Origin: a virus
Reading direction: 5' to 3' (one strand)
Virus record (IMG/VR): IMGVR_UViG_3300037069_001152
Coordinates: 1-28,320 of that record
Length of the DNA: 28,320 nt
In this document: positions 4,968 through 26,662 of the stretch, in pieces
Layout of the letters: each line of letters begins with the position of its first letter
Numbering within the stretch: the first letter of the stretch is position 1
Program-made: the position numbers and the translations under genes
Notes under the pieces: generated by a model
Told to the model about the DNA's origin: nothing
What the model saw: only the letters and a program-made list of their open reading frames with translations
The model's database searches: none

Positions 4968-5299
4968 AAAAGAAAATCGAATACCTACGCTTGCTTTGCC
5001 CAGGCAAGCTATCAATCCAAATAGACGACCATAAGCGATTTGGTGAAACGGCTGAACAAGCCATATCTACCGATAAAACAGGGGAATATAAAGAGATTAC
5101 AGGCGATGTTATTAGCCAGATGATAGAGCGTGATACCATTATTCGTGTTGAATGTTTTCCGCCATATCCTATAGTCGCTTTGTCTATTCATTGGGATTTG
5201 GATAAGGCATTAGAATCGTGTATTCAGCAAATCGAGGCAGCTAAAAAGAGTTTTGAAATGCAATTGGTAGTTGCAGATAGGGGGATAAATGCCAATTAG
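4964..5299 (+). CDS. Hypothetical protein, 111 aa
   Basis: Unrecognised 111-residue soluble protein starting MKKKIEYLRLLCPGKLSIQI. The middle is polar and acidic; the C-terminal third (about 75-105) looks like an amphipathic helix. Two cysteines stand near the start and middle, with a third late, but not as a metal-binding set. It overlaps the methyltransferase gene by 11 bp and so belongs to the same operon as the sugar-modifying genes. Confidence 0.6.
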   Translation: MKKKIEYLRLLCPGKLSIQIDDHKRFGETAEQAISTDKTGEYKEITGDVISQMIERDTIIRVECFPPYPIVALSIHWDLDKALESCIQQIEAAKKSFEMQLVVADRGINAN

Positions 5300-5831
5300 G
5301 ACAATTGAATTTAAGGGTCAAAAATATCCAGGATTTCAAGCTGATGGGCAAGCGTCACAATTTGCTATTCCTGCCGCATTAAACGTACTGTATGGCAATG
5401 GAATAGATATAGGCTGTAACCGACCTGAGTGGGCATATCCACATGCATCTTTTTTAGTAGACCCCGCATTAGATATTCCAGAGTTTTCCGGGTATGATGC
5501 AATGAAACTTCCAAAATCTCCTTATAATATAGATGGGAAATGGGACTATCTGTTTAGCAGCCATCTCTTAGAGCATTTAAATGATTTTGTTGCCGTGCTT
5601 GAATATTGGCATGCCAACATAAAGCGGGGCGGTACATTATTCCTTTATCTACCAGATTGCAACGCTCAAAACTATTGGAGGCCGTGGCATAACCGAAAAC
5701 ATGTAAACTATTTCACACCTGAAATATTTAAGCAATATTTTGCCGACATGTCAGATATGTGGGATATTTCGTTTGTGAGCGGAACCGATATTAATTGTTC
5801 ATTTATTGCTTATGCAAGGAAAAAAGTATGA
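5289..5831 (+). CDS. Class I SAM-dependent methyltransferase
   Basis: Protein of 180 residues with a compact Rossmann methyltransferase fold. Motif I is GIDIGCNRPEW (38-48), the place where S-adenosylmethionine binds. An acidic residue follows in VDPALDIP, then DYLFSSHLLEHL (86-97), which is the usual strand-4 motif with the D/S and EH(L) pattern, and RGGTLFLYLPD (about 116-126) as strand 5. The protein is short and resembles methyltransferases linked to glycosyltransferase clusters, which often cap or modify sugars. It overlaps the next gene by ATGA (5828-5831). The substrate cannot be read from the sequence; sugar, lipid or protein are all possible. Confidence 0.8.
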   Translation: MPIRTIEFKGQKYPGFQADGQASQFAIPAALNVLYGNGIDIGCNRPEWAYPHASFLVDPALDIPEFSGYDAMKLPKSPYNIDGKWDYLFSSHLLEHLNDFVAVLEYWHANIKRGGTLFLYLPDCNAQNYWRPWHNRKHVNYFTPEIFKQYFADMSDMWDISFVSGTDINCSFIAYARKKV

Positions 5832-7753
5832 AAGTAGGCTTGCTAATCTGCTGCAAAGATCGTCCCAAAGAATTAGCCGAATGTTTACGTTCGGTACAAG
5901 ATGCTGATTTGTCACAAATAAACGAGTTGATGATAGTTGATGATGGCAGTACAGACTTCAAAACAAAATCTCTTATCCAGTCGCTAAACTTTAAGGACAG
6001 CCATAAAAACCTTGTTCAGAAACCAGTATCGAAAGGCATAAAAAACAGCTTACTTTTAGGTTACGAATACCTATTCCAAAACAACGACATCGTAATCAAC
6101 CTTGACGGCGATGCCGTTGTTAAGCCTGATTTTGTGAGTAGGTTGGTGGAGTCATATTTGCCAGGCACTTTACTAACTGGTTTTCATTGCACCACTAAAA
6201 ACGAAAACGGAACTGATAGGCACAAAATAATAGATGATTCCGGGTTTAAAAAAATTGGTAATAACAAACATGGTTTTTTACTTAAACAATCGGTAGGGGG
6301 AATAAATTTTTGCATAGATAAACTTACTTATATCCACTTCATGAAAAGGGCACTAAACATGCCCGGTAACTTCGACCACAACGCCTGTATATTAGCTGGT
6401 GGTGCCTACTGTCTCAAACAATCCGTCATTCAACACATCGGCTTCTCATCATCAATGGGGCATACCGAATTACCCGACACCGCAGAAGATTTTCACCTAC
6501 TTGAATTACCCGGTGTAACATTGATAGGCGTGGATAGCAACCCACAGCGTTTGGAGTTAGCTAAACTAAAATGCACCAGCATGATAAAGTTTGGCGATGT
6601 CGTTACACTACACCCGCCAATAACAAGCAAGGAACAATACAGCGAGTTTTGCATCCGTGAAATGGCGCAACATATTCACACCTCACACGCCCTAATATTT
6701 CAACATGACGGCTTTGTAAATAACTGGCGCGCCTGGGATAACGATTGGTTACAATACGACTATATCGGTGCGCCGTGGTGGTATCAGGACGGAATGAACG
6801 TTGGCAACGGTGGTTTTTGCTTACGGTCAAAACGATTGATGGATATATTGGCAACAGATCCGAACATTACACAGCTACATCCCGAAGATCATCATATTTG
6901 CCGGACATATCGCCCGTATTTAGAAAGCAAGTACGGTATTAAATTCGCACCTTATGAAGTTGCGGAGCGTTTTAGCTTTGAGGGGTATATGAGGCATGGC
7001 GAGGTGGTTACAGACCAGTTTGGGGTGCATGGTAATTACACCGAACGTAAACCAATAAAACAAAATAAATATGTATTCAACCAATTCCTATCACTTGGTG
7101 ATATATTATTCCTTGTGCCAATGTACAGGGCTTTAGTCAGGGAGGGCAATTCAGTCTTATGGCCTATTGACAGCCAATATTTTGACATAGCTAAACACTT
7201 TCCCGATGTAAATTTTGTGCGCAAAGATGAATACCCCAAATTGCCTTATGATAGCCGTTCTGTTATCGGTACGGAATACGGAGCAATGTTGCCATACCGT
7301 TACGCAAGTGAAAATATGAGCCGATCTTTAAAAGACTGTATGCGTAGCAAATATGAGTTGTTTGGACATGACTATCGTATGTGGCGGGAGTTAAACTGGA
7401 AGCGGGACAAGGTATCTGAATTGGCACTGATAAAACACCTGAACCTACCATCAAAGTTTACTTTGGTTAACCGCACCTTTGGGCATGAAGCGAAACTATT
7501 CGTTACCCCTGATTTAAAATATGACATTCCAGTTATTGAAATGACAAATATATCAGGATATACACTTATTGACTGGACGGGTGTTATTGAATTGGCAAGC
7601 GAGGTACATGTGGCAAACTCATCTATTATGTATTTACTGGAATTATCCGATATAAAGGTGCCGATACATGTTTATAGGCGTGGTATTTGGGGGGAGGCCG
7701 GGTATGAGTATACCGAATATCTTTGGGAAAGCAATAAATTTATATTTCATTAA
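5828..7753 (+). CDS. Three-domain glycosyltransferase (GT2 + DUF5672 + GT9-like)
   Basis: Large glycosyltransferase of 641 residues. The start at 5828 is preferred because it overlaps the methyltransferase stop by ATGA and gives MKVGLLICCKDRP, a typical GT2 start; a longer frame from 5795 is possible. Domain 1 (about 1-220) is GT-A/GT2, with VDDGSTD (37-43) and a metal-binding DGD (93-95). Domain 2 (about 224-376) matches DUF5672: FQHDGF near 288-293, YDYIGAPWW and VGNGGFCLRS. Domain 3 (about 417-641) resembles GT9/heptosyltransferase-like GT-B proteins, with SLGDILFLVPMYRALV at its start; its end is less clear. Three sugar-transfer modules in one chain suggest a processive or multi-step glycan builder. 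It is followed by a GT4 gene. The acceptor may be virion or host glycans. Confidence 0.85.
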   Translation: MKVGLLICCKDRPKELAECLRSVQDADLSQINELMIVDDGSTDFKTKSLIQSLNFKDSHKNLVQKPVSKGIKNSLLLGYEYLFQNNDIVINLDGDAVVKPDFVSRLVESYLPGTLLTGFHCTTKNENGTDRHKIIDDSGFKKIGNNKHGFLLKQSVGGINFCIDKLTYIHFMKRALNMPGNFDHNACILAGGAYCLKQSVIQHIGFSSSMGHTELPDTAEDFHLLELPGVTLIGVDSNPQRLELAKLKCTSMIKFGDVVTLHPPITSKEQYSEFCIREMAQHIHTSHALIFQHDGFVNNWRAWDNDWLQYDYIGAPWWYQDGMNVGNGGFCLRSKRLMDILATDPNITQLHPEDHHICRTYRPYLESKYGIKFAPYEVAERFSFEGYMRHGEVVTDQFGVHGNYTERKPIKQNKYVFNQFLSLGDILFLVPMYRALVREGNSVLWPIDSQYFDIAKHFPDVNFVRKDEYPKLPYDSRSVIGTEYGAMLPYRYASENMSRSLKDCMRSKYELFGHDYRMWRELNWKRDKVSELALIKHLNLPSKFTLVNRTFGHEAKLFVTPDLKYDIPVIEMTNISGYTLIDWTGVIELASEVHVANSSIMYLLELSDIKVPIHVYRRGIWGEAGYEYTEYLWESNKFIFH

Positions 7754-8679
7754 TGAACATCCTATGTTGCACCTACAATTGGCTGGGTAAAGACATGACA
7801 GCGGGGGGCGAAATATATTTATATCGATTATTGTGCTATCTGCGAGATTGTGGGCATAGCATCAAGTGCCTAACGCGGCACGAAGAAAGTTATACCTATG
7901 ATGGGTTTGAGTGTGAGTACATGGGCGACATGTCAACTTTATGGACAGGAAACAACCATCATTTTGAATGGTGCGATATTGTAATTGGGCAATTGATGGG
8001 CGATAGTTACGCTCACAACAAGTCAGGACAATATAATAAGCCATACGTTTTTATAGCGCACAACCCATACACTTCATATTTCATTAGATGGAGCAAACGG
8101 CCTTATATCATTTACAATGCCGAAAATACCCGAAAGGAAACGGCGCACGAGTATGGCAATATACCGGGCATAGTTTTACACCCATTTGTTAAACCGCAGC
8201 CTAAGCCACGTGGCGCAGCGGTAACATTGGTTAATTGCAATGAAAATAAAGGCGGGGGTGTACTTGTTGAATTAGCAAAGATATTTCCGCATAGGCGATT
8301 TATAGGCGTATTAGGGGGATACGGCGAACAAGTTACCGCAGACCTGCCAAACATAACCTACCTGCCAAATGGGACGGAAATGGATGCGGTGTGGAAGCAA
8401 ACGGGTACATGCATTGTGCCATCAACCATAGAAAGCTATTCACAGGCGGCTTTAGAGGCTATTTCTTATGGTATACCTGTAATTTGTAGCGACCTGCCCG
8501 GATTGCGAGAAAATTTAGGCGATGCAGGTATTTATATTAAAGATAATAATGTACCTTTATACGTGAAAGCTATTGAGGGTAAAAAGCCGGATGTAACAGG
8601 ACGGGCGAATGAACTTTACCAGCAGTCGATAATTGAACTTGAACAAGTTAATGAATGGTTATTAAATATTGTTAAATGA
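7753..8679 (+). CDS. GT4-type glycosyltransferase (GT-B fold)
   Basis: Protein of 308 residues. The N-terminal Rossmann half has an AGGEIYLYRLLCYLRDCGH segment (about residues 17-35) typical of GT4 enzymes. The C-terminal half carries the diagnostic ESYSQAALEAISYGIPVICS segment with the E-x7-E pair that binds the nucleotide sugar, then DLPGLREN. It is shorter than many GT4 enzymes (about 350-400), mostly by a compact N-terminal half. Start and stop overlap the neighbours by one base (TAATG) and by ATGA. Sugar donor and acceptor are unknown. Confidence 0.85.
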   Translation: MNILCCTYNWLGKDMTAGGEIYLYRLLCYLRDCGHSIKCLTRHEESYTYDGFECEYMGDMSTLWTGNNHHFEWCDIVIGQLMGDSYAHNKSGQYNKPYVFIAHNPYTSYFIRWSKRPYIIYNAENTRKETAHEYGNIPGIVLHPFVKPQPKPRGAAVTLVNCNENKGGGVLVELAKIFPHRRFIGVLGGYGEQVTADLPNITYLPNGTEMDAVWKQTGTCIVPSTIESYSQAALEAISYGIPVICSDLPGLRENLGDAGIYIKDNNVPLYVKAIEGKKPDVTGRANELYQQSIIELEQVNEWLLNIVK

Positions 8680-24437: not shown

Positions 24438-24784
24438 CAGGTATCTCATCTTCGCATGTAAGCTGGACAAAGCTATGGGTAGTAATAGGAATATTCTTTG
24501 CGCCTTGTTTTGGGGGTCTTATTATGGCTGTACGGGGAGGCCAGCAGATCATTGATAAAATGGACGTTGTTATCATTAAGGTTAATGAACAGGGTAGCGA
24601 TATTAAAACCCTTAAAGATGATGTGACAAAGTTATCTATTAGGGTTGACACTATATATCACAGACAGGACATTAATAATGTTATACAGAACTTCCGCTAT
24701 CAAATGCAGCAACAAAACGGGCCTACAACCTACCGTACACAATCTTACAATCCGGTTACAAAAGTTAGGAGGATGAGTAGATGA
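24434..24784 (+). CDS. Membrane-anchored coiled-coil protein, 116 aa (holin/XhlA-like?)
   Basis: One membrane segment (WVVIGIFFAPCFGGLIMAV, about 15-33) is followed by a coiled coil (about 40-77, with VNEQGSDIKTLKDDVTKLSI) and a polar glutamine-rich tail. The topology is like haemolysin XhlA-type and spanin-type lysis proteins. It sits directly before the endolysin gene and overlaps it by ATGA. Assignment as a lysis protein rests on location and topology only. Confidence 0.5.
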   Translation: MTGISSSHVSWTKLWVVIGIFFAPCFGGLIMAVRGGQQIIDKMDVVIIKVNEQGSDIKTLKDDVTKLSIRVDTIYHRQDINNVIQNFRYQMQQQNGPTTYRTQSYNPVTKVRRMSR

Positions 24785-25203
24785 TATTAGGCAAACAATC
24801 ACTGAAAACACTTATCGGAATACACCCTGACTTAGTTAAGGTAATGCAGACCGCAATTATTGATACTCCGGTTGACTTTACCATAACCGATGGCGTTAGA
24901 ACAGTTGCGATGCAAAAAGCACTATATGCACAAGGTAGAACTAAGCCAGGGGGTATAGTTACCAAAGCAGACGGCATTATTCACAAGTCAAATCACCAGG
25001 TTAAAGCAGACGGGTATGGCCATGCGGTTGATTTATACCCATACGTTAACGGGGCTATAGATTTTAACGGTATAAAGTTGCCTGAAATAGCAACTCATAT
25101 TAAACAGGTTGCCGCATCGCTTGGGGTATCAATTACGTGGGGCGGTGACTGGACAATGGCAAAAGATGGCATTGTTGATAGGCCGCATTTTGAATTGAGA
25201 TAG
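24781..25203 (+). CDS. M15-family peptidase, probable endolysin
   Basis: Protein of 140 residues related to VanY/L-alanyl-D-glutamate endopeptidases that cut peptidoglycan cross-link peptides. Likely zinc ligands are His72 and Asp84 in SNHQVKADGYGHAVDL and His136 in DRPHFEL; Asp133 fits the catalytic acid. Arg40 in DGVRTVAMQ is the usual conserved arginine. The spacing between His72 and the G-x-A-x-D end is longer than in the usual S-x-H-x2-G-x-A-x-D form. No signal peptide is present, so a holin would be needed for release. A strong AGGAGG (24767-24772) stands 8 bases before the ATG. Confidence 0.88.
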   Translation: MILGKQSLKTLIGIHPDLVKVMQTAIIDTPVDFTITDGVRTVAMQKALYAQGRTKPGGIVTKADGIIHKSNHQVKADGYGHAVDLYPYVNGAIDFNGIKLPEIATHIKQVAASLGVSITWGGDWTMAKDGIVDRPHFELR

Positions 25204-25434: not shown

Positions 25435-25659
25435 TTAACGGGTAGGCTCTTTGTCAATTACCGCCAATTGTTCAGAAAACTCATTAAGTAAATTATTTTC
25501 ACCCCCGCCAATGGGGTAACCGTAATCAAAATTATATCTACTCCCGCAATATAAGATTACAAAATCAAAACATTGATAGCCCATGTCTGACTTGTAACTT
25601 CTATAGTTTGATATTTCACACCCAAACCTTTTTGCTATTGATAATATTTTACGCTTCAT
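25435..25659 (-). CDS. Hypothetical protein, 74 aa
   Basis: Unrecognised 74-residue protein with a basic helical start (MKRKILSIAKRFG) and an aromatic middle (SYKSDMGYQCFDFVILYCGS). No Shine-Dalgarno and no convincing promoter lie directly upstream; it may be read as an extension of the tmRNA transcript. A terminator follows. Confidence 0.5.
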   Translation of the reverse strand: MKRKILSIAKRFGCEISNYRSYKSDMGYQCFDFVILYCGSRYNFDYGYPIGGGENNLLNEFSEQLAVIDKEPTR

Positions 25660-25706: not shown

Positions 25707-25730
25707 GCCCCGTCCGTTTCCGAACAGGGC
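25707..25730 (-). terminator. Hairpin just after the tmRNA 3' end
   Basis: GCCCCGTCCG (25707-25716) can pair fully with CGAACAGGGC (25721-25730) when read as RNA on the minus strand, giving 10 bp including G-U pairs with a GAAA loop. It starts 4 bases beyond the tmRNA discriminator base. It lacks a good U-run, so it may end or stabilise the precursor. Confidence 0.5.
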
Positions 25731-25733
25731 TTG

Positions 25734-26046
25734 TGGAGGTGGAGGGGGTCGAACCCTCGTCCAGTAATGTCAGTTAATTAATAATATTGTTACACGCTTT
25801 TATTCGTATTAATTGGGGCTATTCCGGTTAAGGTAAGCGAATCCACCAATCCATTTTACAGTTGGATAACTGCCATTGTTTGTATTAAGCTACCGCTCTA
25901 ACCTGATTGAACATAGAAACTACTTTAGCTTCTTTTGTTCCAACTGTAAAGTTGTCTTTTGTTTTTTGATACACATTTAAAAGTATAGTATCATCCTTTG
26001 CGTGTTATTAATCACTTTAATCATCCTGTCAATTCCATGCACCCCC
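25734..26046 (-). ncRNA. ssrA: Transfer-messenger RNA (tmRNA), phage-encoded
   Basis: tmRNA rescues stalled ribosomes: alanine-charged, it enters like a tRNA, then its short ORF tags the unfinished protein. All core parts are visible. The 7-bp acceptor stem is GGGGGTG (26046-26040) with CACCTCC (25741-25735), with a G-U at the third pair, the alanine identity signal. The D-region has the TGGAATTGACAGG form. The T-arm is GAGGG-TTCGACC-CCCTC. Helix P2 pairs GTGATTAATAACACGC (26015-26000) with GCGTGT and TTATTAATTAAC (25797-25773). Pseudoknot 1 pairs GATAC/GTATC and CTTTT/AAAAG. The tag ORF probably runs from GGA at 25941 to TAA at 25885: GTKEAKVVSMFNQVRAVA. CCA is not encoded (A then CAA). Length is 313 nt. 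No SmpB gene is in the window. Confidence 0.92.
25885..25941 (-). other. tmRNA tag reading frame (18 codons plus stop)
   Basis: Read from GGA (resume codon) the tag is GTKEAKVVSMFNQVRAVA, then TAA. The choice of GGA is based on the preceding ACAGTT, comparable to the conserved bases before known resume codons, on Bacteroidota tags often starting with G, and on frame. A later start at GCT (25929) would give AKVVSMFNQVRAVA. The tag is longer than usual (8-15 residues in most bacteria) and ends AVA, not the common ALAA. Confidence 0.65.
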
Positions 26047-26053
26047 ATTTTTC

Positions 26054-26073
26054 CGTTACCACCATTGGTAACG
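26054..26073. repeat. 7-bp inverted repeat in the tmRNA leader
   Basis: CGTTACC (26054-26060) and GGTAACG (26067-26073) are exact reverse complements with a 6-base spacer. The repeat falls at the predicted tmRNA transcription start and just before the mature 5' end. It may be an operator or a leader hairpin for processing. Confidence 0.55.
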
Positions 26074-26076
26074 CAT

Positions 26077-26107
26077 CAAAGATAGGTAAAGGTTTGGACA
26101 AATCAAA
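26077..26107 (-). promoter_or_regulatory. Perfect Bacteroidota promoter of the tmRNA
   Basis: On the minus strand TTTG (26107-26104), 19 bases, TATCTTTG (26084-26077). The predicted start near 26070 leaves a leader of about 24 nt before the mature 5' end at 26046, suitable for RNase P processing. It overlaps the divergent promoter at 26093-26125. Confidence 0.82.
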
Positions 26108-26125
26108 ATAATTTTACTATATTTG
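26093..26125 (+). promoter_or_regulatory. Perfect Bacteroidota promoter, divergent to the tmRNA
   Basis: TTTG at 26093-26096, 21 bases, TATATTTG at 26118-26125. Transcription would begin near 26131, at or beside the ATG at 26129, so the mRNA may be leaderless or the promoter may use a slightly earlier start. It shares 15 bases with the tmRNA promoter. Confidence 0.75.
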
Positions 26126-26128
26126 TAC

Positions 26129-26494
26129 ATGGAATTACCTTTTGAATATATCAAATCAATACAGGCGCAATGGGCGTGGGATAAGTATTGTAAAACCGAA
26201 TGGGTTAAGCAGGGTGGACAATGGATACTTAAATGGCATCTAAGTACAGGCGGTTTATCAGACCATGAGCGCATAATTGATAAAATGAGTAAAATATTTT
26301 GGCTGGGATGCTGGGTACAATCTCGCAGGGGCGGACATTATGAATTTGAAGTTAACCCCGTACAATGGGGATGGAAACTTGTAAATGACTATGCAAGGGA
26401 TAAAGGAATATCCCGTCAATATATTTACCACAACCCACATAAATTTAAATGGATTGAGGTTTCTAAGAATGTAAAATTTATTCAAGAGGTTTAA
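26129..26494 (+). CDS. Hypothetical protein, 121 aa
   Basis: Unrecognised 121-residue protein, rich in tryptophan (nine or more), tyrosine and lysine. The ATG at 26129 is chosen over TTG 26123, because that codon lies inside the -7 element. The N-terminal half is helical with KYCKTEWVKQGGQWILKWHL; the C-terminal half (DKGISRQYIYHNPHKF) could be a helix-turn-helix, but weakly. It is transcribed from a promoter that overlaps that of the tmRNA, so the two are likely co-regulated. No function can be given. Confidence 0.6.
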   Translation: MELPFEYIKSIQAQWAWDKYCKTEWVKQGGQWILKWHLSTGGLSDHERIIDKMSKIFWLGCWVQSRRGGHYEFEVNPVQWGWKLVNDYARDKGISRQYIYHNPHKFKWIEVSKNVKFIQEV

Positions 26495-26497
26495 CCA

Positions 26498-26529
26498 TTT
26501 GCAATTGTCAAGTGGTGGGTGTATATTTG
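26498..26529 (+). promoter_or_regulatory. Perfect Bacteroidota promoter for an orphan small RNA
   Basis: TTTG at 26498-26501, 20 bases, TATATTTG at 26522-26529. The predicted start near 26536 is followed by no ORF until after a strong terminator at 26627-26662, so it appears to drive a non-coding RNA. Confidence 0.8.
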
Positions 26530-26535
26530 CCTAAG

Positions 26536-26662
26536 CGCGGATGCAGCTGAAATCCCACACATTTGTGCGGGAGTATCGTAAGATAGGTTGCATGGTGTTT
26601 TTCATAAGATGTATTTAGGTTTAGGTAAATAGCTGTCCGCAAGGGATGGCTATTTGTTTTTT
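26536..26662 (+). ncRNA. Candidate stand-alone small RNA, about 127 nt
   Basis: This segment runs from a perfect promoter to a strong intrinsic terminator and is followed by a new promoter. No coding frame is convincing within it. Hairpins: GGAT/ATCC around 26543-26559, then TCCCACACA with TGTGCGGGA (one A-C mismatch), then the terminator. It does not fit any RNA family I can recognise; in particular it is too short for 6S RNA and has no tRNA arm pattern. It may base-pair with host or phage mRNA, or act as a leader with a conditional terminator for the next gene, though that gene has its own promoter. Confidence 0.6.
26627..26662 (+). terminator. Strong intrinsic terminator of the small RNA
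   Basis: AAATAGCTGTCC (26627-26638) pairs with GGATGGCTATTT (26644-26655), 12 bp with two G-U pairs and a 5-nt loop (GCAAG), followed by G and six T. Confidence 0.85.

Follow-up and report, generated by a model that had tools for sequence, protein, structure and literature searches.

The locus examined here raises three questions: whether it encodes a complete tmRNA, whether the gene belongs to a phage or to a bacterial host, and what its tag peptide might do. It lies in a 28,320 nt stretch of DNA (hereafter the window), a linear virus fragment from IMG/VR with portal, protease, capsid, connector and tape-measure genes. An earlier note on this DNA had proposed a complete tmRNA gene on the minus strand, and a search with the Rfam covariance model RF00023 bore this out. 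The model matched the minus strand from 26046 to 25731 end to end (model positions 1–374 of 374) with a score of 71.4 bits (E = 3.7e-26) against a curated cut-off of 47 bits, and this was the sole Rfam match across the 28.3 kb window. ARAGORN, the alternative check, reported no tmRNA in the window and likewise missed three of the relatives described below (L121, L124 and L129), so the tool support for the gene (ssrA, 25731..26046, minus strand) comes from Rfam together with comparison.

The mature RNA would be approximately 313 nt before CCA addition, as the CCA is not encoded and the DNA reads A-CAA. The elements follow the order 5′ acceptor strand, tag and 3′ acceptor strand, which makes this a one-piece tmRNA and not the permuted form of RF04321; with a complete tag frame and the pseudoknot PK1 it is also distinct from the tRNA-like-domain-only RNA of the DS6A type. 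The full-length model match, the G3-U70 pair, PK1 and a tag frame with a stop after a small hydrophobic C-terminus together identify it as a tmRNA.

To find relatives, virus contigs were scanned with sequence patterns. Four further copies were recovered, in L121 (54.5 kb), L124 (46.1 kb), L129 (94.3 kb) and L220 (4.1 kb), all of them above the Rfam cut-off (57.6–78.1 bits). The five sequences were aligned and covariation was assessed against controls in which the structure was slid along the alignment. In the proposed structure 98.7% of cells paired, compared to 35–41% when slid. Nine base pairs carried changes on both sides, with zero in every slid control, indicating that the pairing in PK1 and in the stems did not arise by chance; covariation extends to PK1, to the acceptor stem and to a second pseudoknot.

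Each part named in the earlier note was present on the minus strand, namely the acceptor stem with G3-U70, the T-arm, the long P2 helix, PK1, the tag frame and an exact promoter. The 5′ acceptor strand GGGGGUG (26040..26046), placed by the alignment, pairs with CACCUCC (25735..25741), placed by the Rfam match, and both are supported by covariation. G3-U70, the alanine identity pair, was invariant in all five relatives, and in L220 it remained unchanged while the adjacent pair 2-71 had switched from G-C to U-A. Two stem pairs of the T-arm (GAGGG-UUCGACC-CCCUC, 25742..25758) had changed on both sides. The same was true of two pairs of P2, the 5′ side of which (26000..26028) covaries with the 3′ side (25762..25797). 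PK1 (25968..25999), just ahead of the tag frame, also covaries, its pair 48-67 being A-U, C-G or G-C depending on the relative. Within the tag frame, a hairpin over the EAKVVS codons (25915..25933) showed two pairs changed on both sides.

A second pseudoknot, which went beyond the features of the earlier note, follows the tag stop at 25849..25872 (CAGU-U-AUCCA-ACUG-UAAAA-UGGAU). It is of the compact H-type and was present in all five sequences, the version in L220 being GGUU-U-AUCCG-AACU-UAAAA-CGGAU, the first stem of which depends on the placement of a 2 nt gap. An alignment-free search also recovered it in all five sequences, whereas none of 1000 shuffles had it in all five; this amounts in effect to two independent observations, because four of the copies are nearly identical there. 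The distance from the stop to P2 was only 80–89 nt, and this was the one conserved H-type pseudoknot found in that region; the later pseudoknot set is therefore probably reduced. A 12 bp inverted repeat flanking the tag (25950-25939/25866-25855) was considered as an extended P5 helix and dropped: in three relatives it is shorter and contains interruptions, it is absent from L220, and the overlapping pseudoknot covaries.

The resume codon was set by its position after PK1 and by comparison, and tags were counted from the codon after PK1. In the window the frame runs from GAC to TAA (25885..25956, minus strand), encoding DNFTVGTKEAKVVSMFNQVRAVA in 23 codons plus the stop. The corresponding peptides were DNSIVGTSGAKVVSMFNQVKAVA in L129, DNSLVGTLGAKVVSMFNRNVSAKLAA in L121, DNSIVGAKGAKVVPMFNREKVAA in L124 and GDIIVKNTEAKVVSMFTPLKAVA in L220. 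The tag, the length of which was the other feature beyond the earlier note, thus has 23 residues in the window and 23–26 across the five-member set. The frame, the position of the stop and the core AKVV(S/P)MF were kept in all five, even though L121 carries a 9 nt insertion and the start differs in L220. The C-termini were AVA, AVA, AVA, LAA and VAA, all small and hydrophobic and, by analogy, like known degrons; AVA differs from LAA, and degradation through the AVA end is an assumption. Differences between the relatives fell on all three codon positions. These counts alone do not show selection at the protein level, and the same bases are also under constraint from the in-frame hairpin.

The window tag is approximately two and a half times the length of those of the likely hosts. 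Chromosomal Bacteroidota tags had 8–10 residues in all but one of 57 ARAGORN calls, and 25 of the 26 distinct tags had 10 residues or fewer. Of 25 distinct standard-form virus tags called by ARAGORN in the pattern-matched loci, 12 had at least 21 residues; this set was chosen by acceptor patterns, is not drawn exclusively from Bacteroidota phages and includes a few doubtful calls (e.g. L004). The commonest tag length in the tmRNA database is 10 (PMC11915505). The library searched yielded no publication dealing with the length of phage tmRNA tags, which is not proof of absence. Long tags also occur in cultured phages: FpV4 (DNAQVEANMNMAFSLIREDVAVAA) and the Cellulophaga phages phi38:1 and Calle_1 (VNAQIEANMEAVNAILNLEVAVGV), a tmRNA having been reported for Calle (PMC8776804), have one-piece tmRNAs with tags of approximately 23–24 residues. 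They resemble the window in these respects and differ from it in RNA sequence and tag. The C-terminal halves, KVFSLL..EVAVAA among these cultured phages and KVVSMF..VKAVA in the window, show a similarity that is only suggestive; homology of the window tag with those of FpV4 and L012 is not claimed (shuffle p ~0.005–0.01, uncorrected). The FpV4 gene (Flavobacterium phage, L198, 1501-1915) was unannotated in the deposited record and missed by ARAGORN.

Whether the gene belongs to the phage was assessed by comparison with the ssrA of likely hosts, as the earlier note had proposed, and near identity to a host ssrA was not found. Among 395 Bacteroidota genomes there was no full-length match; the best matches covered 22–56 nt, nearly all of them in the 3′ T-arm, and for this reason the window tmRNA is not regarded as a copied host gene. 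The surrounding genes are those of a phage, with structural and lysis genes around the tmRNA, including the endolysin (24781-25203), and the same RNA occurs amid other gene content. The L124 tmRNA adjoins a holin-like gene 51% identical and an endolysin 29% identical to those of the window, and the window capsid protein was absent from the L121, L124 and L129 contigs. Since copies are found in contigs without this capsid, the RNA lineage seems to move between different phages, all records being fragments; this suggests that the RNA is retained or exchanged for a function of its own. In the contigs with a capsid-related structural module (L210–L213), which are fragments, no tmRNA was seen. As ssrA is often an integration site (PMC11915505), a host gene or attachment-site copy carried by a prophage was considered; given the 395 genomes, the phage surroundings and the failure to find an integrase in the four carrying contigs (window, L121, L124 and L129), it is scarcely credible. 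The ideas of an integration site and of tRNA-dependent lysogeny were likewise rejected, as no integrase was found in these four. The claim that this is a phage tmRNA thus withstood the comparison. One Bacteroidota chromosome (G122:C1:772761-773172, L217) carries a second tmRNA copy with the tag GENNYALAA; being degenerate, it was rejected as a relative.

The consensus TTTG-N19-TAnnTTTG is characteristic of Bacteroidota promoters. An exact instance, TTTG-N19-TATCTTTG (26077..26107, minus strand), ends 30 nt ahead of the mature 5′ end of the tmRNA. Five such sites were observed in the window against 0.69 expected from shuffles, four of them between 26077 and 26683. The 5′ leader (26047..26076, minus strand) contains a GTTACC/GGTAAC hairpin (leader fold −10.8 kcal/mol) and is presumably removed by RNase P. 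Directly past the 3′ end is a 10 bp hairpin with a GAAA loop (25707..25730, minus strand), which could be a weak terminator or a 3′ processing element, its T-run being poor. The description of the gene as its own regulated-looking unit holds in so far as a good promoter precedes the gene and a hairpin follows it, and the unit amounts to no more than these. Downstream on the same strand, an ORF of 74 aa (25435..25659), with no Pfam match, is possibly co-transcribed with the tmRNA; homology to the ORF at the equivalent place in L121 was rejected, as there was no similarity.

At 26077-26125 two perfect promoter motifs overlap on opposite strands, one for the tmRNA and one for ORF 26123-26494, which would consequently have almost no leader; a protein search with this ORF gave no match. 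A second RNA-like unit with a Bacteroidota promoter occupies 26498-26662 (plus strand), where approximately 130 nt fold at −44 kcal/mol and a 13-pair hairpin is followed by six T; it had no match in Rfam or in the fetched loci. Between the capsid gene and the head-tail adaptor (5289-8679, plus strand) are a methyltransferase, a GT2 + DUF5672 protein and a group-1 glycosyltransferase, genes that are kept in L210, L211 and L213 and for which virion glycosylation is a possible role. The window is probably from a tailed phage of a Bacteroidota host. The host group is suggested by the promoter sites and by the phages and bacteria with related RNA ends; the capsid protein was <30% identical to those of the best-listed cultured phages and does not identify the host.

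In chromosomal Bacteroidota ssrA genes, which are one-piece, the acceptor stem with G3-U70, the T-arm, P2, PK1 and the tag frame with its stop are all shared with the window, and the D-domain UGGAAUUGACAGG also occurs in a Cytophagales ssrA. In contrast, the window set is shorter (312–317 nt vs approximately 348–404 nt), encodes tags of 23–26 residues and not 8–10, probably has fewer pseudoknots past the tag and is unrelated in sequence outside the ends.

The gene, its conserved fold and its conserved frame are observed directly in these sequences. We consider it probable, judging from sequence comparison, that they represent a working phage tmRNA that would use the alanyl-tRNA synthetase and SmpB of the host and tag the proteins it rescues with an extended degron. 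Maturation would fall to RNase P and the CCA-adding enzyme of the host, and host alanyl-tRNA synthetase would charge the RNA with alanine through G3-U70. Host SmpB would then bring it to ribosomes stuck on broken mRNA; smpB was not found in the window, L121 or L124, and this dependence on the host counts against the reading. The ribosome would switch to the internal frame at GAC, add the 23-residue peptide ending in AVA and terminate in the normal way at UAA, with the AVA end serving as a ClpXP-like degron for proteolysis. The predicted outcome would be that stalled ribosomes are freed and their products cleared while infection proceeds; whether by replacing or by overriding host rescue, as the earlier note suggested, the RNA might do so in place of the host's own system. 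The phage RNA appears to have lost some of the usual pseudoknots, and the extended tag common to the five phage RNAs probably alters the handling of the tagged protein. In L219 (the contig of L006), a phage tmRNA with the tag GNVLDKMETLGLVRESEVTVA and a convergent smpB lie side by side (1416-1814 and 1911-2360).

Two other readings would deny the RNA this role. It might act as a decoy, sequestering SmpB or alanyl-tRNA synthetase and thereby blocking host rescue, as suggested for the RNA of mycobacteriophage DS6A, and an inhibitory phage tmRNA fragment offers a precedent (PMC4131195); a full mRNA-like part, a covarying PK1 and a conserved frame and stop would be needless for a decoy, however, and we regard this as very unlikely. 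That the gene is a degenerating remnant of an acquired tmRNA is more improbable still: its score is low (71 bits vs 105–200 on chromosomes) and ARAGORN missed it, but compensatory stem changes and open, conserved frames are found in five divergent copies.

If the RNA is a working tmRNA, the tag itself can be read in several ways: the extension may help a protease to engage, may hand the tagged proteins to a different protease, the situation in Mesoplasma florum, or may be a consequence of the in-frame hairpin. The codon-position counts do not separate these. That RNA architecture accounts for the length, with the frame stretched through the hairpin and the extension idle beyond the degron end, is a tentative possibility. 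It is favoured by the covariation of that hairpin, by nucleotide changes on all codon positions and by a stop-to-P2 region of only 80–89 nt. The peptide core AKVV(S/P)MF is nevertheless kept in all five members, and tags of 21–26 residues are also found in unrelated phage clades whose RNA sequences differ, which a single RNA constraint would not account for. The 23–26-residue tags add plausibility to the earlier suggestion that proteins are marked for other proteases. As a specific reading, redirection to another protease (e.g. Lon) or away from ClpXP would be analogous to M. florum, the chromosomal ssrA of which encodes a lengthened tag for Lon ending in NYAFA and tied to the loss of ClpXP (PMC9382460), and long tags built around a hydrophobic core are found repeatedly in phages. 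Two of the five members end in LAA or VAA, of the ClpXP type, though, and no phage protease was found beside the tmRNA, leaving this reading unlikely. Similarly doubtful, for now, is the broader proposal that several unrelated phage tmRNA lineages evolved tags of 21–26 residues with conserved, lineage-specific cores, acting as viral degrons or sorting signals that send rescued proteins to a fate unlike that conferred by the host tag.

Phage tmRNAs as such are already known. Complete ssrA genes are carried by the mycobacteriophages Bxz1, Wildcat and others, Bacillus phage G and huge phages, all with other hosts (PMC4131195, which lists phage tmRNAs; PMC7162821, in which huge phages have tmRNA and SmpB), and in permuted two-piece form by Melnitz, Pelagibacter phage Mosig and Crassvirales (PMC9004378). 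The tags of crAss-like phages have 13–14 residues compared to 23 in the window. Permuted tmRNAs above the Rfam cut-off were also seen in L202, L203 and L204 (Crassvirales) and in L201 (Chryseobacterium phage MA9V-3), and thus in Bacteroidota phages, whereas the sampled chromosomal Bacteroidota tmRNAs were one-piece. The statement that phage tmRNAs are known but rare stands for isolates, with 402 of 18,146 phage genomes (2.3%) carrying one (PMC9004378), but at least 120 virus stretches carry one tmRNA 3′-end pattern. Because ARAGORN misses a whole clade, phage counts such as 2.3% are lower bounds. What is unusual here is the length of the tag. With a structurally selected lineage, carried beside differing capsid genes and encoding a tag far longer than those of chromosomal Bacteroidota, the reason why phages carry tmRNA becomes testable.
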